59,780 nt of DNA. Source: Cenarchaeum sp. SB0675_bin_21. GTDB taxonomy: Archaea > Thermoproteota > Nitrososphaeria > Nitrososphaerales > Nitrosopumilaceae. The notes beneath the pieces were generated by a model. That model saw nothing but the letters and a program-made list of their open reading frames with translations. It was not told the origin of the DNA and searched no databases. The DNA lies in the NCBI GenBank assembly GCA_009843815.1, contig VYCS01000023.1, forward strand, positions 1 through 59,780, written 5' to 3'. The position numbers and the translations under genes were made by a program. Positions 3,017-54,963 of the stretch are shown in pieces (within the stretch, counting starts at the first letter, position 1; every line of letters begins with the position of its first letter).

Positions 3017-3352
3017 TACCAAACGACTTATTTCCCAAAATATAATATATTATTTGCAGTGCAGACAGGCATACTGCCAAAAGTGTCTCAATTGTATAAA
3101 ATCGTGGATGTCACGTGTAACACTGACAAGAAAAGTTACACGTTACCATATGCAAAAATATGTCACCTAGAAAAATAACTGGTATATGTGGAGTTGACAT
3201 ATGCGGTGTGTATAGTCGCCGTACAGTCGGTTGGTAATGTCAGACTATATGAGAAGAATACCATGCGCAATATAGGGTATAAAAAAAACTCTTATGAGAC
3301 TACACAAAAAACTAGACTTTATCTACAGAAAGATGGTACACAGACAACTTGA
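3017..3352 (+). pseudogene. Decayed TnpB fragment
   Basis: One reading frame, interrupted by a TAA at 3176-3178 and ended by TGA at 3350, aligns to the middle of the intact TnpB at 23862-25160. YFPKYNIL corresponds to YFPKCNVQ, QLYKIVDVT is identical in both, and EKNTMRNI corresponds to EKDTLRNI. The region where the intact protein has its RuvC-I aspartate (GIDMGGKH) is scrambled and the Asp is gone. Traces continue weakly towards 3420. The flanking DNA (2661-3016 and 3353-3473) holds no other gene that I can support. This is a dead copy of an element of the same family as the one at 23.8-25.3 kb. Confidence 0.75.
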
Positions 3353-3473
3353 CAAACTTCCGAAAACTCACTATGATAGGTGGCCACATACGACAAGTCA
3401 ATGTGCCAGTCATACATATCTGTGAGACAGGTTCGATTACGCATAAATTCTAGTGTAGTGTAGAGCCCAATAT

Positions 3474-3547
3474 GCCTCGATAGCTCAGCCTGGTAGAGCG
3501 AACGCCTCGTAAGCGTTAGGTCGCGGGTTCAAAGCCCGTTCGAGGCT
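3474..3547 (+). tRNA. tRNA-Thr (anticodon CGT)
   Basis: A complete cloverleaf: acceptor stem GCCTCGA/TCGAGGC, D stem GCTC/GAGC, anticodon stem AACGC/GCGTT with loop CTCGTAA (anticodon CGT, reading ACG, threonine), T stem GCGGG/CCCGT with loop TTCAAAG. The discriminator is T, as is usual for archaeal threonine tRNAs. The CCA end is not encoded and there is no intron in the anticodon loop. Confidence 0.97.
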
Positions 3548-3642
3548 TTTTCATATTCAATGTCTATCTCCAACTCTTTACCTAGGCCTTTCCACCATTT
3601 TGGTACTCTCTGTGACACAGTAATTATACAACAGCATGCCCA

Positions 3643-3882
3643 TTATACCTTTTCCATTCTATCTCGGAGTCGCTTGCGGTACCAAATGACGGCCATGGCA
3701 ACGCCCGCGCACGCCCCAAATACATACCACCTGTAAGGACTATCCATCATGCCCAAAAATGAGTAGATGGTTCCTCCTATGGCTGCAAACCCGATCAACT
3801 CTAGTAATTTTATCAATCTGTTATGTGTTACGTTATACAGTGATATAATCCTGTAGCTGAGCTTGGGGTTTATCCCACACAA
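3643..3882 (-). CDS. Small membrane protein, function unknown
   Basis: A 79-residue frame with two probable membrane helices (LLELIGFAAIGGTIYSFLG and WYVFGACAGVAMAVIWY) and a basic C-terminus RKRLRDRMEKV. I do not recognise the family. The N-terminal 20 residues are less convincing, so the true start may be internal. A second minus-strand frame overlapping the start (3833-4033) is rejected as a shadow. It lies between the tRNA and a second small membrane protein on the other strand. Confidence 0.55.
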   Translation of the reverse strand: MCGINPKLSYRIISLYNVTHNRLIKLLELIGFAAIGGTIYSFLGMMDSPYRWYVFGACAGVAMAVIWYRKRLRDRMEKV

Positions 3883-4186
3883 GCTTGGGCGATACTACGC
3901 CGCATCTCTGAGATCGTCTGTCCGCCCTGTATGAGTGATGTTCTTGATGTCTCCTTTGTGATGTGCTAATAGCAGAACGCGCTAATGTGCTTTGGCGGTG
4001 TCCAGCGATAAGTGTTCTAAAGCGGCCCACCACACGCCTCGCTTACCTCCCACCAGGTTCATGTCACGCAGATTTACTAGTTCTTATGTGGTAATTCATA
4101 ACACTACACCTATCACATAAACTTGCGGGAAGGCGCCGAATTTAGTAATCGTTTTGTGGGGGGTGTGCACAATAATACACAATACA

Positions 4187-4369
4187 ATGTATGATCGCAA
4201 GCTGACAATGTTGGGCCTAGCGTTATTGGCCGTTACCGTGCTGTTATATTACATGGAGGATGAGACCATGCTCCAGTATGCATATGTGACCGGAGTGGCC
4301 ATGCTTGCCATATTTTTGCTATCCTTTATACGATTCAACTTCAAATATATGGGATCTAACAAGAAATAA
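4187..4369 (+). CDS. Small two-helix membrane protein, function unknown
   Basis: Sixty residues starting MYDRKLTM, with two hydrophobic helices (LGLALLAVTVLLYYM and YAYVTGVAMLAIFLLSFI) and a short basic tail ending GSNKK. A longer frame begins at 4154, but the ATG at 4187 gives a more natural N-terminus just before the first helix. It is 24 nt upstream of pyrG on the same strand and may be cotranscribed with it. I do not recognise the family. Confidence 0.6.
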   Translation: MYDRKLTMLGLALLAVTVLLYYMEDETMLQYAYVTGVAMLAIFLLSFIRFNFKYMGSNKK

Positions 4370-4393
4370 TAGCCCTACATTATACTAAAAAAT

Positions 4394-5989
4394 ATGAAAT
4401 ACATCTTTGTTACCGGAGGCGTGATGTCGGGCCTAGGAAAGGGCGTTGTCACCTCCTCCATTGCCAAACTACTTCAGCTGGCAGGACTAAAGGTGTCGTG
4501 TATCAAGATAGATCCTTATCTGAACTATGATGCAGGCACAATGAACCCCATAGCTCATGGAGAGGTCTTTGTTACTGAAGATGGTGGAGAGTGTGACATG
4601 GATATAGGCAACTATGAGAGATTCTTGAACATCAACATACCTAAAAACCACAATATAACCACGGCTCAGGTGTTTTCGGATGTCATAAGTGCAGAGCGGG
4701 ACGGCAAGTATATGGGTGAGTGCGTTCAGATCATACCTCACATAACCGAAGAGATACGGAGGCGCATAGCCATGGTGGGAATAGATGAGTCCCTGGACGT
4801 TCTAATTGTGGAGTGTGGCGGGACCGTTGGTGACATAGAGTCGTTGCCGTTCTTGGAGGCTCTCCGACAGATGAGGGCAACCTGCCAAGCTGGTGATAAT
4901 GTCTTGTTTGTACATGTGACACTTGCGCCCTCACTAGATGTAGTGGGCGAACAGAAGACTAAACCTACACAGCACAGCGTTCAGGAGTTGCGGCGTATTG
5001 GTATACAACCAGACTATCTGGCGGTGAGATGTACACAACCACTACAAAAGAAGACAAAAGAGAAGTTGGCCCTCTTTACAGGTGTGAATGAGTCTGATGT
5101 ATTGTCATGTCATGATGCAAATTCAATATTTGAGATTCCAGGCATATTGTACGAGCAGGGTATAGTGGACTCTATGTTTCGCAAGTTTGGCCATGTGGGG
5201 TTGATGGACTCTTCCAAAGACTGGGACACTTGGAATGGTGTAGTAAACTCGATGGTACAGGAAGGCAAAACTGTTCGTATTGCGATGGTGGGCAAATACG
5301 TGACACTCACCGACAGTTATGTCAGCGTGAATCAGGCGCTAAGACATGCTGCTGCAGACCTGGGCGTATCTATAAAGATTGATCTGGTAGATTCAGAGAG
5401 TATTCCCACAGGCATGGTATCCAAATATGATGGCATACTGGTTCCTGGTGGCTTTGGCATACGGGGGGCCGAGGGCATAATACAGACAGCTCAGGAGGCT
5501 AGAATATACGATACACCATACCTTGGAATCTGTTTTGGATTTCAACTTGCTGCTGTGGCCTTTGCTAGATATGCACTGAATATTCCCGATGCGCACACAT
5601 CTGAGATTGTATCTGACACCAATAACCCTGTGGTGCACTTGTTACCTGACCAAGTCTCTGATCATGCCACTGGCGGCTCTCTTAGGCTGGGCTCCCACAC
5701 CATAAAGATCAAACCAGACACACTGGCCCATAAAATATATCAAAATCACACAATACAGCGCCGCCACCGGCATCGCTACGAGATAAACCAAGATATGATA
5801 ACAAAACTAGAGGTGGCCGGCATGATATTCTCTGCGTATAGTGATGATTCCCGACGTATGGAGATACTAGAGATACCAGAATGTCGTTTTTACATGGGCG
5901 TGCAGTTCCATCCTGAGTTTAGCAGCAGACCTGGATTTCCAGAGTCGTCTTATCGTGCATTTGTAAAGTCCGCAGCCCGACTCAACTAA
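4394..5989 (+). CDS. pyrG: CTP synthase
   Basis: PyrG aminates UTP to CTP using ATP and glutamine. The 531-residue protein is of normal length. The synthetase domain opens with KYIFVTGGVMSGLGKG (P-loop), followed by KIDPYLNYDAGTMNP and the UTP/CTP contact region HGEVFVTEDG. The C-terminal class-I glutamine amidotransferase domain shows GGFGIRG, the nucleophile in LGICFGFQ (Cys380), and the His506/Glu508 pair in QFHPEF, so the full catalytic triad is present. Its stop overlaps the end of the convergent NAD kinase gene by 8 nt. Confidence 0.97.
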   Translation: MKYIFVTGGVMSGLGKGVVTSSIAKLLQLAGLKVSCIKIDPYLNYDAGTMNPIAHGEVFVTEDGGECDMDIGNYERFLNINIPKNHNITTAQVFSDVISAERDGKYMGECVQIIPHITEEIRRRIAMVGIDESLDVLIVECGGTVGDIESLPFLEALRQMRATCQAGDNVLFVHVTLAPSLDVVGEQKTKPTQHSVQELRRIGIQPDYLAVRCTQPLQKKTKEKLALFTGVNESDVLSCHDANSIFEIPGILYEQGIVDSMFRKFGHVGLMDSSKDWDTWNGVVNSMVQEGKTVRIAMVGKYVTLTDSYVSVNQALRHAAADLGVSIKIDLVDSESIPTGMVSKYDGILVPGGFGIRGAEGIIQTAQEARIYDTPYLGICFGFQLAAVAFARYALNIPDAHTSEIVSDTNNPVVHLLPDQVSDHATGGSLRLGSHTIKIKPDTLAHKIYQNHTIQRRHRHRYEINQDMITKLEVAGMIFSAYSDDSRRMEILEIPECRFYMGVQFHPEFSSRPGFPESSYRAFVKSAARLN

Positions 5990-6971
5990 TACTGTATATC
6001 TTTTGTCGAGAGTCAAGTATGGACACTTTTCTGTGAATATGACCCTTCTCTAATAGACGTGTCAATGCAATACGAACTGTTCTGGCTGGGAGAAAGGTCT
6101 TTGCTATAAGCTCTTTCTGTGACATCTCCCCTTCATACTCTAGCATCTTTAGTATGAGCTTTGAGCTGGGCGGCATGCGTAGAAGGTCCTCGGCTAGATG
6201 TACTTTCTTTATCATGGCCGATACACTGGTGGTGTTATCTTCCATACGTATGATATGAGCTGGTGATTTGAACTTTGAATACTTTACACTCTCCTTGACT
6301 TTTAGTCGATCTACGCCATCAAGTATAGTGTCGCAGCGTATATGTGAGGCAATCTCTGACACCTCTATCTTACTGCTACTGGGAACCACTATGGGTCGGC
6401 GCGTAACATCCTGTGAGTTGACTGGAACTATTCCAAACACATCTGACCCCTGAAATATTACCGGACCCCCTGTGGACATGGAGTATGCTGTTGAGCCCAT
6501 GGGAGTCGATACTATTATGCCATCCCCACTATCGTGCCATACCTCATGTTTATTGACACTCAAGGTGTACTCTATCAGCGTAGCACTCTTTGCCGAAAAG
6601 ACCGCAGCATCATTCAAAGCTATATGGGAGTTTTTGTCATCAACTATGACCTTTAACCGGGGTATCTCTACTATGTTGTAGTTTTTGGTGTTGTGTAGAC
6701 GGTCTATATGTAATCCTATCTCTTTACTGTCTAGTTGAGACAGAAAACCACCTGCATCGCCCTCGGATACTCCAAGTATGGGAGCTGGTGGAACGTTGGG
6801 ATTACGAAAGTATCTTCGTATGCCTTTATCTCCACCCGGTACTATTATGCACCCTATATCGCTTGATATATTGTCTGGTGTTACCTTCTTTATGCCATCA
6901 TACTTTAGCCTCTCCAGTAACGTCTTTACAGCATTGGGCACTATACCATCATCTAATATGCAAATCTCCAA
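5982..6971 (-). CDS. NAD kinase fused to a C-terminal winged helix
   Basis: Residues about 1-260 form an ATP-NAD kinase, which makes NADP from NAD. Visible motifs are VPGGDKG (Asp48 at the catalytic position), ALNDAAVF (Asn120-Asp121, the NE/D motif) and DGIIVSTPMGSTAYSMSTGGP. The usual GGDGT is altered to GGDKG. Residues about 260-329 add a winged-helix segment (SSKLILKMLEYEGEMSQKEL followed by a recognition-helix-like stretch with PARTVRIALTRLLEKG), resembling a MarR/TrmB-like DNA-binding domain. This fusion suggests redox- or NADP-linked DNA binding, but that is inference. It is 25 nt downstream of the PfkB kinase on the same strand and probably shares its mRNA. Confidence 0.85.
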   Translation of the reverse strand: MEICILDDGIVPNAVKTLLERLKYDGIKKVTPDNISSDIGCIIVPGGDKGIRRYFRNPNVPPAPILGVSEGDAGGFLSQLDSKEIGLHIDRLHNTKNYNIVEIPRLKVIVDDKNSHIALNDAAVFSAKSATLIEYTLSVNKHEVWHDSGDGIIVSTPMGSTAYSMSTGGPVIFQGSDVFGIVPVNSQDVTRRPIVVPSSSKIEVSEIASHIRCDTILDGVDRLKVKESVKYSKFKSPAHIIRMEDNTTSVSAMIKKVHLAEDLLRMPPSSKLILKMLEYEGEMSQKELIAKTFLPARTVRIALTRLLEKGHIHRKVSILDSRQKIYSIS

Positions 6972-6996
6972 TATTATACAATGCGTAATAGGTTGT

Positions 6997-7860
6997 TTAT
7001 ACTTGCCTATATTTGACTAAATTGTAAAAGTATGATGCATTGGTTTGAATGGCTCCTTTTTTGGGGATCTTTGCCAAACCTAGCGCCTTAGAGTCCAATG
7101 CTGCCTGTACTGCGCCTCCCGCAAAGCATAGCGCCCAGAGAGTATCCTTCTCTTTTAGCATTGTGCATAAAAAAGAGCCGCACAGTATGGCGCCCAAACC
7201 TGTAGTGTCATATATCTTCTTGTTGGGCAGCTCTATTGTGTATAACATGGTCTTGTCTAACATTACAATGTCTTTACCATTGGTGCGGATTACAGTTCTG
7301 GCACCCATCTTTTGTAGTCTCTTCATACCTTCTATCTCGTTGTCATCTCCAGTTATAGCCTGTATCTCGGCGGGATTTACTTTTAATGCATCAACATCAG
7401 TCATGTCTAGTGTGGCAGGAGATGTATGTATCATGTTGTCTTCACCTGTAGTGCGCAACAACCCTTGTGGATTATACAGTATGTAGCCATCTTGATTTTT
7501 TATTATATCTGGTGTTATCTCATGATATATGGGTGATATTATAATCCCGTCTCTGCTGTCGTTTTGTACCTGTATATCTTCACATTGATTTTGCAGGTAC
7601 ATCTTTCGTTTTAAGCCATCTATCACTATCTTGAATCTGGTGGTCGGTAATGCTGATGATGACGCATCATGTTTAATGTTGGCATTTTGTAGATATTTTT
7701 TTGGAAAATCATCTCCAAATTTTGTCTGTATGCTAACATTGGACTTGAACTCTCTGGCCATGAGTCCAGAGTAACACGCATCTCCGCCCGCCTGCTCATA
7801 TGTAGAGTCTCCTATGTGTAATCTGTCCATTGCACAATGGGATATTACACTAACGTTCAT
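6997..7860 (-). CDS. PfkB/ribokinase-family protein lacking the catalytic Asp
   Basis: A 287-residue PfkB-fold protein. The N-terminal glycine pair (QAGGDACYSG) and the C-terminal anion-hole region (YDTTGLGAILCGSF) are both present. In active family members the latter reads DTxGxGD, with the final Asp as catalytic base; here residue 224 is Ala (codon GCC where GAC would give Asp). The protein may therefore be inactive or use another base. The substrate is unknown. The start overlaps the upstream zinc protein by 11 nt, and NAD kinase follows, which suggests a three-gene operon. Confidence 0.8.
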   Translation of the reverse strand: MNVSVISHCAMDRLHIGDSTYEQAGGDACYSGLMAREFKSNVSIQTKFGDDFPKKYLQNANIKHDASSSALPTTRFKIVIDGLKRKMYLQNQCEDIQVQNDSRDGIIISPIYHEITPDIIKNQDGYILYNPQGLLRTTGEDNMIHTSPATLDMTDVDALKVNPAEIQAITGDDNEIEGMKRLQKMGARTVIRTNGKDIVMLDKTMLYTIELPNKKIYDTTGLGAILCGSFLCTMLKEKDTLWALCFAGGAVQAALDSKALGLAKIPKKGAIQTNASYFYNLVKYRQV

Positions 7861-8074
7861 TTCCGGCCGATTCTTCGTTTATACTGGAGCATTTATCGCA
7901 CAGTATTTTGCCACACACTATGGATACCTCTACATTTGATGTAAGGCAGCCATGACATAGTCCTCTCATGGAGTGTTGTGGTACGGGTTTGATTAATAGT
8001 CTTTTGTTGATTCCAGTATGTGGGGCTCTTTGTATCTGATGCGTATCCCCCTGAGTAGTATTGATATTATACAT
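7850..8074 (-). CDS. Small zinc-ribbon-like protein
   Basis: Seventy-four residues. The C-terminal half has two cysteine pairs, LCHGC and VCGKILCDKC, arranged like a zinc knuckle. The N-terminal half is polar and less conserved-looking. A TATA-like ATATAC at about 8095-8100 is roughly 26 nt before the ATG, which supports this start and a leaderless transcript. It overlaps the PfkB gene by 11 nt and heads that operon. The function is unknown. Confidence 0.65.
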   Translation of the reverse strand: MYNINTTQGDTHQIQRAPHTGINKRLLIKPVPQHSMRGLCHGCLTSNVEVSIVCGKILCDKCSSINEESAGNER

Positions 8075-9283
8075 AGTTGTACTAATACCAACTTGTATAT
8101 ATCTTGTATTATGTATAGTGTCGTAAAAATACTATTGGAATCTCCCAACTCGTGACCATGGCATGCCCATATAATTCTCTATTAATTGATTTATTGGGGT
8201 TGGTGTGCGGTCAGTCCTGCATGAATCATCCTTGGGGAAGGAGCTTGACACACAAATGCATGATGCAATACGGCAGTATACATGAAAGATTTGAGATGAT
8301 GCAGACCACAGGTATTATAAACTAGATTACGATGCCGAATTCAGACATATGGAGGCGTATATAATAAACTGACTTATTAATAAAATAAAAAATTAATTTT
8401 AATCTAATATCATACCAAGTCACAAGATGCAAACTTGAAGTGTTTAAATACAAAGATCATACCAGAAACAAAATTAGAAAACATAACTATCTAAAAAAAC
8501 CTATACTCATAGAAAGCCATTAACAAAATATACAATAAAAATCAAATTTTTAAAAAGGAAGATTGTACAGATTATCAAATATGCTATACATCATATGGTC
8601 GAGTTCTACAAACTATTCAGCAAACATTCGGGCTGTATTATTTCCTCACATATTTGGTGAGGCACAAGTACTGAGGATTAAAATTACATATTTCAAATAA
8701 ACGAATTACAACTTACACACTGCAGAATCGAATTTATGATCTTTGAACTATTACTGGAACGCATAAACAATCTAGATTTATCACATTCAGACTGAATAAG
8801 AATTAGGGTCAGAGTGGTAAGGGTTACCGTTATGTGCAGAATCTATACAAAACATCATGCCGCAATGCAGGAATCAAAACTCAGGCGTTCATCAAATGGT
8901 AGAGGTGGTCTACATCCAAAGTCTGGCGAACCGCCCATAGACAGTATAAAATACAACGAGTACCTAAACTAAAAATTGACAACATAATTTTACTTACTAG
9001 CTATCTTTTGTAAGAAACACTTATGCATTTTGATTAATGTGGTAAGGTTTGTGTCTGCTATTTTATCTGTGTATAATATGATCAAATTCATGTTTAATAT
9101 TTAAAAAACATTAAAGAATGTTATAGTCCAATCTGCCGCAATTAGAAACATTGCAATATTCAGAAAATAGATCAAAATAAACATTATTTATAATCAAGGC
9201 ACCTTAATATTCAGAAAGATGGTCAAACGACAAGTAATCAAAGTAAAATTTCATATAATATTTGTACTGCATCATATAATATA
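8075..9283. other. 1.2-kb AT-rich gene desert
   Basis: No frame of credible coding character was found. The stretch is strikingly AT-rich (especially 8340-8560 and 9000-9280). One perfect hairpin lies at 8644-8662. A 35-codon protein-like tail at about 8868-8972 (+), containing GGLHPKSGEPPIDSI, ends in TAA and could be the end of a decayed gene, but I cannot name it. No RNA gene was recognised. Confidence 0.5.
8644..8662. repeat. Perfect short hairpin
   Basis: CCTCAC and GTGAGG flank a 7-nt loop (8650-8656). It is isolated in AT-rich DNA. It could be a structural element of an unrecognised RNA or a terminator, but no T-run follows. Confidence 0.35.
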
Positions 9284-9481
9284 ATGCAGATAAGATGCTC
9301 ACTGTGTAACATGCTCTTTGATGATAGTGATGAGCTGATCCAGGAGAGAAAACGTAGACATGAGCAATGGCATCGTCTGGATATGACATCGTATAAGCGC
9401 AACGCCATTATTGGCGATGTGGTGTGGATTCCCAATGATGCCCCACGTGATACTGGTATTCAAAATAAGATAAAAAAGTGA
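9284..9481 (+). CDS. Small C2H2-like zinc-finger protein
   Basis: Sixty-five residues. The N-terminus has CSLC followed 19 residues later by HEQWH, giving a C-x2-C ... H-x3-H pattern of a zinc finger. The remainder is polar and ends NKIKK. A TATA-like stretch near 9252-9262 precedes the ATG by about 26 nt. The gene converges on radA, 3 nt apart. DNA or RNA binding is likely from the motif, but the target is unknown. Confidence 0.65.
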   Translation: MQIRCSLCNMLFDDSDELIQERKRRHEQWHRLDMTSYKRNAIIGDVVWIPNDAPRDTGIQNKIKK

Positions 9482-9484
9482 ATT

Positions 9485-10516
9485 CTACTGATCGGTAGTA
9501 TTCTCTGTGTCGGTTGGTGCAGTCTTTGTTTTTCTGGTAGTCTTTTTGGCTTTGGGATCTTCGGGATCAATTATACCGGCCTCACCAATACCAAATATGA
9601 CCTCCTCTTCAGGATGGTGCGGACTGTCCACCATACGTGCAATTCTCTTTTTACCAGATTTTTTAAAGTAGACTCGATAAGTACTGGTATGAGCCACCAC
9701 ATTGCCACCAATGGGCTTTGTGGGATCTCCAAAGAATACATCTGGTGATGCCATCACCTGATTGGTGGCCACCGCCGCACAGTTGTATGTCTCGGCTATG
9801 CGCACCAACAGATGTACAAAGTGGTTTAGCTTCTGCTGCCTCTCTGATAGCGTGCCCCGTCCTAGATACTCGGATCTGAATAGGCCCACTGCAGAATCAG
9901 CTACTAATAGCTTGATGTTACTCTCACGTATTATGGTGCCTGCTTCCTCAAGTATGAGTACCTGATGGGAGCTGTTGTATGCACGTGCTACTATGATATT
10001 GTCTAGTATCTGTTGCGGATCCATGCCATTGGCCTGGGCAATAGAGACTATTCTCTCAGGCCTAAAGGTATTCTCCGAATCTATATACAGCACACCGCCT
10101 TCAAGTCCGCCCTCTTGTATGCTCTTTTGTACCATGACGCATAGTGTGTGGCAGAACTGCGTTTTCCCACAACCAAATTCTCCATACACTTCGGTAAGGG
10201 CTTGCGTCTCAACACCTCCATCAAATAGTGTGTCGAGGCAGTCGGTTCCGGTGGATATCTTTCCTATCTCTTGTCTACGTTTGTAGATGTCTGCTGCACT
10301 AACGAACTCTTTTGCCAGTTGCCCACTTTCGGATAGATGTTTTCTAGCTTTGGTGACTAGTTTTTCAGCAGTCTCTTTCTCCATCCCGGTAATACTAGCA
10401 ATTTCAACAGGTCCTCGAACTATGAGATCCATCATATTGTGTATGCCTGCATCAGACAGTTTCCGTGTGGTTACTGGTCCGACACCTTCTAAACTGTCAA
10501 GTTTTATGTCTTCCAT
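9485..10516 (-). CDS. radA: DNA repair and recombination protein RadA
   Basis: RadA is the archaeal Rad51/RecA recombinase that polymerises on single-stranded DNA and drives strand exchange. An N-terminal helix-hairpin-helix domain (LEGVGPVTTRKLSDAGI) precedes the ATPase core with Walker A GEFGCGKTQ, Walker B LLVADSAV, and the L1-like SEYLGRGTLSERQQKL. The C-terminus is Lys/Thr-rich (KKTTRKTKTA). The open frame starts at 10540, but a TTTATA box at 10541-10546 places transcription start near 10517; the internal ATG at 10516 (MEDIKLDSLEGVG) matches a leaderless mRNA and the usual N-terminus, so I use it. Confidence 0.95.
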   Translation of the reverse strand: MEDIKLDSLEGVGPVTTRKLSDAGIHNMMDLIVRGPVEIASITGMEKETAEKLVTKARKHLSESGQLAKEFVSAADIYKRRQEIGKISTGTDCLDTLFDGGVETQALTEVYGEFGCGKTQFCHTLCVMVQKSIQEGGLEGGVLYIDSENTFRPERIVSIAQANGMDPQQILDNIIVARAYNSSHQVLILEEAGTIIRESNIKLLVADSAVGLFRSEYLGRGTLSERQQKLNHFVHLLVRIAETYNCAAVATNQVMASPDVFFGDPTKPIGGNVVAHTSTYRVYFKKSGKKRIARMVDSPHHPEEEVIFGIGEAGIIDPEDPKAKKTTRKTKTAPTDTENTTDQ

Positions 10517-12787: not shown

Positions 12788-13006
12788 CATAGGTGCTACC
12801 GATCTAAGCCAGCAAGGAGGGTATTCCACGCGGATGTCAATGCCGCCTGGAATATTTTACATCGGGCAGCGTGGAACGTCGTCCTAAGACGGCCGGGGCA
12901 TAAGGAGGGCTACTACACACAACATCCCACCATGCTCCGTTCAATACAACGAGGCCGTCCGAAAAGGCATGAGTGTACAGCCGAGGCTGTGTACTTTTCT
13001 ATATAA
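12788..13006 (+). pseudogene. C-terminal remnant of a TnpB
   Basis: A 72-codon frame opens after a TAA at 12785 and contains VFHADVNAAWNILHRAAWN, the RuvC-III signature of TnpB (Asp of HADVNAA followed by NIL). Upstream only one cysteine of the zinc-ribbon remains (RCYRSKP). The tail (VVLRRPGHKEGYY ... AEAVYFSI) ends in TAA at 13004-13006, 11 nt before the promoter of the zinc-ribbon gene. The catalytic N-terminal two thirds are absent. This differs from the two intact copies, so it comes from another element. Confidence 0.8.
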
Positions 13007-13016
13007 TTCCCTAAAC

Positions 13017-23798: not shown

Positions 23799-23833
23799 CT
23801 CTGAACTGGGCTGTGACGTTATCTACGCGCGTC
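23799..23833. repeat. Target duplication and terminal inverted repeat, hppA side
   Basis: CTCTGAAC (23799-23806) is repeated exactly at 25260-25267. The adjoining 27 bases (23807-23833, beginning TGGGCTGTGACGTTATCT) are the reverse complement of 25233-25259 with a single mismatch at position 19 (A against G). Confidence 0.92.
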
Positions 23834-23861
23834 GTATAACACACGCTGTACAACACAGCTG

Positions 23862-25160
23862 CTACACACTTGGGCTTTCACCCAATGCAACAAATGTTGG
23901 CAAATTACCATCCAGAGGAGTTTCCAAGAGACGTTCATTGTCGGTATGGCTTTGACGCCTAACCTGGTGACCGCCTGTACCGGCAATCACGTCATTAACA
24001 CCTGAAGGAATCGTGCAAGTGCCAAGATGTATCTTTCCTCTCGAGACCATTCCAGCCTCGTTGTATAGTTCGTAAACGCCCTGAGAGCGCTTACTCCATC
24101 GTATAATACGAAAAGCGAAAAGTATGTTGAAGGCGGCATTTACATCAGCATGGCATGCCATACCGCAGTTATAACACCTAAACTTACTACCCTCACGCCA
24201 TGTATTCATGCTACAGCACATGCAGCACTGCTTTGAGGTATTTTTGGGGTCTATCTCAATGTATTCTACATTATACCGTAGGGATTTTTGCGCAATATCA
24301 TTACGCGCCTTACCACACCTACTTTGTCGTGTTATGCGGTTCTTGGTCTTCTGACCCTTGCCTTTACTCGTCATGGTACGAAGGTTCATTCCCTCCATGA
24401 TGATTCTATCACATTGTTTCATTAATTTCTTGTTAAACTTGCGCATCTTGTCGGTCTGACGGTTTCCCATCTTTTTGTATATGCTATCTAACTGGTCGTA
24501 AAGTTTGCGCCACCTGTGGGAGTGTAGTTTACACCTGCTAATCTTCTTGTGAATCCGCGCTATGTTGCGCAGTGTATCTTTCTCTCGTAGTGTGAGCATA
24601 GCAATCGTACCATCGGACTTGCCTACAACTAAAGTGTGCTTGCCCCCCATATCTATACCTGCATGTACACCCGTACAGACGCGGGCCGGTACATGCTCCC
24701 GTATTGTGATATGTAGTTCAAACTGTCTTTCCTTATCGGCATTATTCGTAACATCTACAATCTTGTATAATTGTGAGTCTGAGGGTAGTTTACCTTTCTG
24801 TAGTTTGAATTGAACATTGCACTTTGGGAAGTATACTGTATTACCTTTGGATTTCTTGCCCAACGGCACATCACTAAACAGGGGATATGTCTTGCGCCCA
24901 TACCTCACATATCTGCAATTTTCCAGCTTGTATCCTTCCCGTATGGCGCCGCGAGCCCAGGTCTGGGGGATGGTCCGAAGTTTGGCGGCTATTTTTTGGG
25001 TGTCGAACACCGACAACCCAGCACGACGAGCCTCAATACCTGCATTAAGCCATATGTGGGATTCAGAATACATTGAGTCAAAGTATTTCGTAAGTTTGCT
25101 TGATGTCTTTAAACGGTACTGTAAAGTTTTTATGACGTACTTTTCTCCACGATACTGCAT
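23862..25160 (-). CDS. tnpB: TnpB RNA-guided nuclease homologue
   Basis: A 432-residue TnpB (IS1341/OrfB type), the ancestor-like relative of Cas12. RuvC-I Asp170 (GIDMGGKH), RuvC-II Glu256 (IIMEGMN) and RuvC-III Asp339 (CHADVNAAFNIL) are all present; the zinc ribbon is QCCMCC ... CYNC. It is therefore potentially active. After RuvC-III the protein has about 90 further residues of low-complexity character. A box TATTTAAG (minus CTTAAATA, 25182-25189) 25 nt before the ATG predicts a leaderless mRNA. The same box and spacing precede the third tnpB at 59012. It is related to the relic at 3.0-3.4 kb. Confidence 0.93.
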   Translation of the reverse strand: MQYRGEKYVIKTLQYRLKTSSKLTKYFDSMYSESHIWLNAGIEARRAGLSVFDTQKIAAKLRTIPQTWARGAIREGYKLENCRYVRYGRKTYPLFSDVPLGKKSKGNTVYFPKCNVQFKLQKGKLPSDSQLYKIVDVTNNADKERQFELHITIREHVPARVCTGVHAGIDMGGKHTLVVGKSDGTIAMLTLREKDTLRNIARIHKKISRCKLHSHRWRKLYDQLDSIYKKMGNRQTDKMRKFNKKLMKQCDRIIMEGMNLRTMTSKGKGQKTKNRITRQSRCGKARNDIAQKSLRYNVEYIEIDPKNTSKQCCMCCSMNTWREGSKFRCYNCGMACHADVNAAFNILFAFRIIRWSKRSQGVYELYNEAGMVSRGKIHLGTCTIPSGVNDVIAGTGGHQVRRQSHTDNERLLETPLDGNLPTFVALGESPSV

Positions 25161-25181
25161 GTATAATACACTACTTGGTGG

Positions 25182-25189
25182 TATTTAAG
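25182..25189 (-). promoter_or_regulatory. TATA box of tnpB
   Basis: Minus strand CTTAAATA, followed by ACCA and an AT-rich spacer to the ATG at 25160. The box and the following ACCA are identical to the promoter of the third tnpB (58982-58993). Confidence 0.6.
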
Positions 25190-25232
25190 CGGTAGAGGTT
25201 TGTCTACTATACAGTACATCGAGTTGTCTGGG

Positions 25233-25267
25233 GACGCGCGCAGATAACGTCACAGCCCACTCTGAAC
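25233..25267. repeat. Terminal inverted repeat and target duplication, AIM24 side
   Basis: 25233-25259 is the inverted partner of 23807-23833 (one mismatch in 27); 25260-25267 is the second copy of CTCTGAAC. Confidence 0.92.
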
Positions 25268-53431: not shown

Positions 53432-53460
53432 CACATGTCGGTTCCTCCCGCAAGGACGGG
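53432..53460. repeat. Target duplication and left inverted end, second TnpB element
   Basis: CACATGTC (53432-53439) recurs exactly at 54956-54963. The adjoining 21 bases (53440-53460, beginning GGTTCCTCCCGCAAGG) match the reverse complement of 54935-54955 at 18 positions. Confidence 0.88.
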
Positions 53461-53485
53461 TGCCATATATCACACCTCAACTATC

Positions 53486-53493
53486 TTTTTAAA
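53486..53493 (+). promoter_or_regulatory. TATA box of the second tnpB
   Basis: TTTTTAAA centred about 27 nt before the ATG at 53517, inside the element. It predicts a leaderless tnpB message. Confidence 0.55.
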
Positions 53494-53516
53494 CATGTGG
53501 ACCGTACTATAAGCTA

Positions 53517-54923
53517 ATGGTACTACGTACATACACATTCGGCGTTAGATTCCGTAAAGGGTTCAAGAAGGAGATGTTGGCCAGACAGGCCGGCATGGAC
53601 AGGTACGTGTATAACAAACTATTGGAAACCTTCAAGGAGGAGTACCGTCGAGCTGGGAGGGTCAACACTACGCGTGGTAGGATAAACGCGTGGTATACGG
53701 ACTTGCGCAACCATTCAGGTCCGCGTTGGATGCGTCAATCCATATCCGGGGTGACGCGCCAAATATTACATGACTTGGGCAGGCATTATGACCAATATGT
53801 GGAAACAGAGAAGCTGAAGGCTGTCAACATCAAACCTAAGGCGGAGTTTGGTGAACCGCACTTTAAGAAATATGGAGGTCACATCTCCATCCCGTTTACA
53901 ATAACGCATGATGGCACTATTGGTCAAGCGCGCTTCACCGATACACGTACAATCAAGATAGCCAAGATGGGCGAGGTTAAACTGTCGCGGGAGTTTCCCG
54001 TCTTGAATTACCGATACAAGACGGCCCAACTGTTTCAACTACCGGATGGCGGGTGGAGGATTACCATATCCTGTGATATACCCGATGAGAAGCCAACCGT
54101 GACGGAACCGACTGTTATTGGTATAGACCGGAATGTCGGTAATGTGGCCACACCTGACTGTGTGATGATAATACCCGAAAAGGTGGCACGCCGCATGAAC
54201 AACGCCGAAAAAACAGCCTCTAAGGCACAAAAGATAGCGTCACGCAGGCAGAAACCCGACTATACGAATCGTAAACCTGGTTCTCGACGGTGGGTGAAAG
54301 CCGCTAAGAGGGCTGCCAAGAACAAACGCAAAGCTGCAAACATTCGAAAGACCACCGCGCATAAAATATCACGCGTTATATCGGACAGCACCACACATGC
54401 AGCCTTTGAGAAACTTCCTATACAAAACATGGCAAAGTCCGCCAAAGGTACGGAAGAAAACCCCGGCAAAAACGTTGCGCAGAAATCTGGTCTCAATAAG
54501 GCCATCCTGGAGCAGTGCTGGGGGCTGTTGGCATTACTGTTGGCGTACAAGTTGGCTGGAGAGATAATTTGGGTTGCGGCAGCGTATACAAGCCAACGGT
54601 GCTACTCGTGCGGTTATACACATAAGGACAACCGGGATGGTAGAAAGTTCTTGTGTAAGAAGTGTGGCTACACGTATCATGCAGACTGTAATGCGGGCTC
54701 AAACATAGAGGATGTGGGGCTGAAGAAACTCGGCCCGGGGGCTAGGCATGGCCAACTAAACTTACGAAACTTGCCGGACAATACCGGCAGCACCCATTGT
54801 ACAAGGGGTGTCTGGACGTGGAGGGTTCTTGCGTTAGCTCCACTGAGAAACGTCAAGCACAGACCGGGGAACGAGATGCATCATGTATTGTCGTCCTCTG
54901 GTGTGACGTGTAATGTATTGTAG
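53517..54923 (+). CDS. tnpB: TnpB RNA-guided nuclease homologue
   Basis: A 468-residue TnpB. RuvC-I Asp204 (VIGIDRNVG), RuvC-II Glu298 ([11 protein letters not shown]) and RuvC-III Asp390 ([11 protein letters not shown], where the common VNAA is CNAG) are in place; the zinc ribbon is RCYSCG ... CKKCG. A basic helical stretch ([23 protein letters not shown] precedes it by position, near 255-280) is typical of the family. The C-terminal 70 residues after RuvC-III are unlike other TnpBs and their DNA is conserved with the 12.6-kb relic, suggesting an RNA function for this end. Confidence 0.92.
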
Positions 54924-54941
54924 GTGCGGGAACCCCCGTGC
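54924..54941 (+). other. Hairpin at the 3' end of the second tnpB
   Basis: GTGCGGG pairs with CCCGTGC (two G-T pairs) around loop AACC, immediately after the tnpB stop. In TnpB systems the RNA scaffold lies at the 3' end of tnpB and runs into the element end, so this stem is a candidate part of a guide-RNA scaffold; the flanking sequence after 54955 would then be the guide. That role is inference. Confidence 0.45.
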
Positions 54942-54963
54942 TTGCAGTAGGAACCCACATGTC
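54935..54963. repeat. Right inverted end and target duplication, second TnpB element
   Basis: 54935-54955 is the inverted partner of 53440-53460; 54956-54963 is the second copy of CACATGTC. Confidence 0.88.

Follow-up and report, generated by a model that had tools for sequence, protein, structure and literature searches.

Introduction

According to Bao and Jurka (PMC3627910), TnpB in prokaryotes belongs to IS200/605 or IS607 elements, and its eukaryotic counterpart Fanzor lies in transposons with terminal inverted repeats (TIRs), including IS4-type ones with 8-bp target-site duplications (TSDs). Fanzors were captured independently by TIR transposons (Yoon et al., PMC10711439). IS605 elements have subterminal palindromes and neither TIRs nor TSDs. 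Their transposon-associated motif (TAM) lies directly at the left end (PMC8612924, PMC10640517). IS607 likewise has neither TIRs nor TSDs (PMC6188088). Here we describe an element in a 59,780-nucleotide stretch of archaeal DNA (the window, on contig C14 of a 48-contig, 1.61-Mb genome) in which tnpB lies between TIRs and is flanked by an 8-bp TSD. We consider it, with good confidence, a non-autonomous TIR transposon of the DDE type that carries tnpB as its sole gene, is moved in trans and is helped by TnpB to persist.

By anatomy, the resemblance to Fanzor noted in the original prediction holds: in Fanzor1 and some Fanzor2 elements, a TnpB-type nuclease is also the sole gene of a TIR element with TSDs, some of them non-autonomous, and Fanzor1 is reported from IS4-type transposons that make 8-bp TSDs (PMC3627910, PMC10711439). 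The protein here is, in contrast, a prokaryotic TnpB, and a motif described below suggests that the TSD lies in the guide, whereas in Fanzor1 it is reported to form part of the scaffold of the right-end element RNA (PMC10711439). The element shares with the tnpB-only IS1341 group of IS200/IS605, which has an IS605-type TAM at its left end, a sole tnpB gene with a structured 3' end and presumed movement in trans (PMC8612924, PMC10640517), but it differs from IS605 in its TIRs, in its 8-bp TSDs and in a TAM-like motif that, where present in the class, is placed eight bases off the left end. It carries tnpB as IS607 does, but with TIRs and TSDs (PMC6188088). We found no prokaryotic TIR/TSD carrier of TnpB in the open-access literature; within that literature the predicted "undescribed" class stands, and we claim no priority beyond it.

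A gene for an RNA-guided DNA-cutting enzyme, known in prokaryotes only from elements lacking TIRs and TSDs, is thus found in a large TIR transposon family of sponge-dwelling ammonia-oxidizing archaea, a prokaryotic parallel to the eukaryotic Fanzor elements. The shift to TIR transposons seen in the Fanzor case has apparently occurred at least twice within archaea. Three questions can now be tested: whether TnpB serves generally to retain elements, whichever cut-and-paste transposase moves them, at what point relative to the TSD the guide begins, and whether a TnpB TAM leaves its imprint on insertion sites not chosen by the transposase itself.

Boundaries of the window element

The element spans 1453 bp (23807-25259) and contains one long open reading frame (ORF), tnpB. 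Its features are as follows.
23799..23806 (.), left copy of the TSD, 8 bp, CTCTGAAC, read from the sequence, same letters as 25260-25267
23807..23833 (+), TIR on the tnpB 3' side, TGGGCTGTGACGTTATCTACGCGCGTC, 26/27 against the opposite arm; also on C17 and C9
23807..23920 (-), presumed omegaRNA scaffold, covering the tnpB 3' end with its hairpins and the 3' TIR as far as the end of the element, proposed from folding and by analogy with TnpB and Fanzor1 (PMC10711439)
23862..25160 (-), tnpB, 432 aa, RuvC D170/E256/D339, by Pfam, NCBIfam and alignment to solved TnpB
25180..25192 (-), likely promoter of tnpB (B recognition element/TATA box), CCGCTTAAATACC, roughly 25 bp before the ATG, as read from the sequence
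25233..25259 (-), TIR on the tnpB 5' side, 26/27; homology to the C17 sister ends there (offsets 0..3)
25260..25267 (.), right copy of the TSD, 8 bp, CTCTGAAC, read from the sequence

Re-reading thus bore out the original prediction that the two ends are inverted copies with one mismatch in 27 and that an exact 8-bp CTCTGAAC directly adjoins both. When searched as that prediction had proposed, the TIR occurred exactly six times in the genome, as three inward-facing pairs, and had no match in 60 relatives. A full-length sister on C17 has the same TIRs and is 78% identical across the whole element; its homology to the window element spans from end to end and then stops, and its flanks, CTTAGTCA and CTTGGTCA, form a 7/8 TSD. 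The copy on C9 (locus L014, C9:1000-9500, at 3809-4862) is 1054 bp long and has the TIRs of the window element, with tnpB reduced to its 3' end and no TSD at its flanks. The window element is like miniature inverted-repeat transposable elements (MITEs) in being non-autonomous, in having TIRs and a TSD, and in its proposed movement in trans; it is unlike them in carrying an intact, selected protein gene, and the C9 copy, with tnpB deleted, is a MITE-like derivative. This copy sits inside a gene with an intact paralogue close by (L014:1942-2706) and adjoins an IS481-like transposase fragment. Promoter-like sequences resembling CCGCTTAAATACC are also present in the e17, C3, C12 and C37 copies. 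The nearest match outside the genome was Cenarchaeum sp. SB0662_bin_33, and the host, judged from sequence, is a sponge symbiont in or near Cenarchaeum.

An intact TnpB under selection

The 432-aa protein scored above the cut-offs for Pfam Cas12f1-like_TNB and OrfB_IS605 and reached 110.8 bits against NCBIfam guided_TnpB (cut-off 100). It aligned to solved ISDra2-type TnpB chains across the D..E..D RuvC motifs, and these three residues were invariant in our TnpB alignment (A1). With no other long ORF inside the element, the view that its only cargo is an apparently intact tnpB was upheld. TnpB is under purifying selection, the median ratio of nonsynonymous to synonymous substitution rates being 0.13 in clade A, to which the window element belongs, 0.19 in clade B, 0.20 in clade C and 0.30 in clade D. 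A structure model of the window TnpB built from four sequences had a mean predicted local distance difference test score of 33 and was not used. In three otherwise intact copies (C3:25093, C38:24448 and C37:18180), one zinc-ribbon cysteine is replaced by tyrosine (CSVYGY, CCVYGS).

A genome-wide class of TIR/TSD elements

The genome contains 44 tnpB-like matches from several clades, dozens of copies of which many are intact. For 27 of its tnpB loci, we calculated a joint score over 20 TIR and 8 TSD positions (maximum 28), with a null obtained by pairing left flanks with the right flanks of other loci in 60 trials. Nineteen of the 27 loci reached at least 24/28, against a null maximum of 23. 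The control tnpB loci (three from plasmids, one from a Bacilli genome, an E. coli IS605 and two further congener loci) scored 21 or less, the plasmid and Bacilli loci lacking both TIRs and TSDs. Among the 29 elements with a TIR match of at least 14/20 in this genome and a second Cenarchaeum species, 17 had an exact 8-bp TSD and 22 matched at 7/8 or better, whereas 812 mismatched flank pairs yielded no exact and one near-exact 8-bp match. Over exactly eight positions, left and right flanks agreed in a proportion of 0.91-1.0; beyond these positions, agreement was 0.05-0.45. Together with the occurrence of the window TIR only as three inward pairs, the absence of exact matches among the mismatched flanks rules out coincidental repeats.

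The boundaries can also be fixed without assuming the TIRs, since pairwise alignments of copies from independent insertions break off where the TIRs end, often precisely to the nucleotide. Several copy pairs at unrelated sites are 95-98% identical, indicating recent movement. The ends differ among clades: those of clades B and C start with GGGAATTATATA and those of clade D with GGTTCCTCCCGCAAGG, while the C3 and C12 copies, kin of the window tnpB, have other outer TIRs (GGAACTGTCAAAAAGTAGG and TGGGCTGGTAACTAAACGTCGCG) and exact 8-bp TSDs (CTTGCGCA and TAGACTAA). The GGGAATTATATA motif occurred 67 times with at most one mismatch, versus 2 for its reversed control. The window element therefore stands for a class rather than an oddity, one that comprises several TIR families and most tnpB loci of the genome and for which the TSD evidence is strong in two species. 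The marks of a DDE-type product seen in the original prediction, TIRs at both ends and a TSD of fixed 8-bp length, likewise recur across the class.

Other species and TnpB phylogeny

In the congener G001, four complete tnpB loci have GGGAATTATATACC-like TIRs (18-20/20) and exact 8/8 TSDs (GTTCTGGA, TACTACGC, GGCCGCTG and GAGATTCA). A genome from another genus of the same family, G167, has one tnpB with a TIR of 18/20 and a decayed TSD (5/8), and a second tnpB that ends in the same ATATAATTCCC. Clade A tnpB was present in just 2 of 250 genomes of the family. The TIR pattern had no matches in the genome_contigs and viral_contigs collections, and the viral contigs contained no TnpB relatives; GGGAATTATATACC was met in a single phage contig, which we judged a chance match.

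In the TnpB tree, which included no Fanzor sequences and whose deeper joins are unsure owing to long branches, clade D joins bacterial IS605-type TnpB (100/100), and clades A, B, C and E lie together on the other side. This separation points to at least two associations of TnpB with TIR elements, so that TnpB was likely captured by them at least twice.

A one-sided motif beside the TSD

If TnpB cuts a restored TAM-TSD-flank site with a guide made of the TSD and the flank, the TAM should lie directly 5' of the TSD on the tnpB 5' side; the position analyzed was thus the expected one and was not picked blindly. In clade B, position -9 is G in all 10 left flanks (the C34 flank included), mostly as AG and followed by T, and in 2 of 12 mirrored right flanks (Fisher p = 1e-4). 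Clade D has TTG 5' of the TSD in 4/4 left flanks versus 1/5 right flanks, and ATTG precedes the second element of the window (53440-54955). When clades B and D were pooled, G occupied -9 in 14/14 (Fisher p = 3e-6). A one-sided motif at the TAM position suggests RNA-guided retention, and in these two clades it suggests that the TSD would form part of the guide. In the window element, the last 110 nt fold to -40.1 kcal/mol with predicted hairpins; the presumed omegaRNA region had no match in Rfam.

Proposed mobilization and role of TnpB

TIRs together with a TSD of fixed 8-bp length are the mark of a DDE transposase. The elements, in which tnpB leaves no space for another gene, contain no transposase, and we therefore infer that a DDE enzyme likely mobilizes them in trans. 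This enzyme, whose gene would lie elsewhere at present or until recently, would bind the TIRs and insert the element through an 8-bp staggered cut, leaving the 8-bp TSD. Transcription of the 3' end of tnpB would continue through the 3' TIR to give the omegaRNA, with the first bases past the element end (TSD and right flank) as its guide. TnpB could then cut an emptied or unoccupied TAM-TSD-flank site, and repair from an occupied copy would restore the element.

Several observations weigh against this scheme. The genome encodes DDE-like enzymes of the IS1595, IS481-like and IS6-like types (of the last, three genes, two of them encoding a SWIM domain), and matching ends could be attached to none of these genes, so the cognate transposase was not found; the end motifs expected to flank an autonomous partner were GGGAATTATATA, TGGGCTG and GGTTCCTCCC. 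The original prediction of mobilization in trans thus stands as to the lack of a transposase inside the elements and not as to the partner, and the autonomous element with the same TIRs and a DDE gene that it had proposed to look for did not appear. Neither a Y1 nor a serine TnpA lies inside the elements, and a genome-wide search for either was not run. No precise empty site emerged from the regions upstream of hppA in congeners or from a joined-flank search of all fetched loci. The element is indeed absent upstream of hppA in congeners G001 and G002, but the flank there is rearranged or too diverged to show the single CTCTGAAC expected of an empty site. The genomes are, moreover, fragmented assemblies. 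Clades A and C lack a clear motif on the 5' side of the TSD, so that the TAM pattern seen in clades B and D says nothing about the window element, and covariation in the terminal hairpin of clade C was not significant against shuffles.

There is next to no chance that these are ordinary IS200/IS605 (IS1341-type, tnpB-only) or IS607 elements with coincidental flanking repeats. Although archaea commonly carry elements with tnpB alone (PMC3119063, PMC10640517) and clade D joins IS605-type TnpB in the tree, 17 exact TSDs at fixed boundaries against 0/812, perfect or near-perfect TIRs at which copy homology ends, and plasmid and Bacilli controls without TIRs and TSDs refute this as regards TIRs and TSDs. 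A class moved in the same way with TnpB as a passenger, or serving regulation or interference with plasmids or viruses and having no part in retention, would agree with the motif-free clades A and C and with the altered zinc-ribbon cysteines of the C3:25093, C38 and C37 copies; we regard it as unlikely, given that clades B and D have their motif exactly at the required TAM position. Somewhat more credit, though still well short of even, goes to an asymmetric target preference of the transposase as the source of the motif. The motif varies with the TIR family (AG|T in clade B, TTG in clade D), as such a preference might, but the preference of a two-ended DDE complex is normally symmetric, and the motif is missing from the mirrored right side. 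It is improbable that TnpB and its guide RNA help to choose the landing site or act in homing, with insertions arising or surviving solely beside a TAM; the same low probability attaches to the corollary that these archaea at least twice evolved an RNA-guided transposition system based on TnpB with a transposase in trans.

As to the mobilizing enzyme, an IS6-like transposase of the same genome seems a doubtful candidate. The IS6 family generates 8-bp TSDs, which fits the length seen here, and the three IS6-like genes include one with a T3-like end (GGAACTGTCAAAAA) 0.7 kb away, a weak lead. However, we found no TIRs with a TSD that could be attributed to these genes, and there is no match between the ends GGGAATTATATA and GGTTCCTCCCGC. 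The IS1595 element on C37 was rejected as autonomous partner, its TIR-like arms being different. At one IS6-like locus (L080, C13:43000-47000), ends GGAACTGTCAAAAAC..., GGTTCTGTCAAAT... and GGTTCTGTCAAGT... lie at 2951, 3383 and 3399, downstream of an intact SWIM-DDE gene, two of them exactly 8 bp apart (TTTTGGAA), and tandem 18-bp repeats (TTGGCCGTAGGCCTCGTA) lie upstream of the gene at about 555-695.

Further elements in the window and the genome

The window holds other members or remnants of the class.
12960..13011 (-), remnant, clade B 3' end (TIR and hairpin) with no recognizable tnpB
53440..54955 (+), second TnpB-TIR element, clade D, TIR GGTTCCTCCCGCAAGG.../GGTTCCTACTGCAAGC..., by joint TIR and TSD scoring
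53432-53439 and 54956-54963, exact TSD CACATGTC of this clade D element
53517-54923, tnpB ORF of this clade D element, 468 aa
58901..59780 (+), TnpB-TIR element of clade B, left portion only, truncated where the contig stops, TIR GGGAATTATATACAAAAGTACACA

Contigs C20, C31, C38, C41 and C15, like the window, end in or near clade B copies, probably because near-identical copies broke the assembly. A clade A tnpB fragment with a stop codon lies at 3020-3274 of the window, with a GGGAATTATATA motif 370 bp away at 2649. Besides the one at 13000-13011 (-) of the window, solitary 3' ends with TIR and hairpin and no recognizable tnpB occur at C5:13956 (-), C24:32130 (-) and C6:5900 (-); such ends may be remnants or RNA-only units.

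A possible 4.3-kb element at 865-5125 of L149 (C33:22500-28500) has GGGAATTATAT ends, TTATAAAT on both sides and a gene for a 1328-aa secreted repeat protein; its TIR is about 11 bp long, and the arrangement may be due to chance. In L013 (C26:31000-44500), a 7-kb element (about 3432-10472) has C12-type TIRs at both ends and a 7/8 TSD (TTATACTC/TTACACTC). It carries McrB-like and McrC-like restriction genes and a truncated tnpB, and is possibly a cargo-bearing version of the class.
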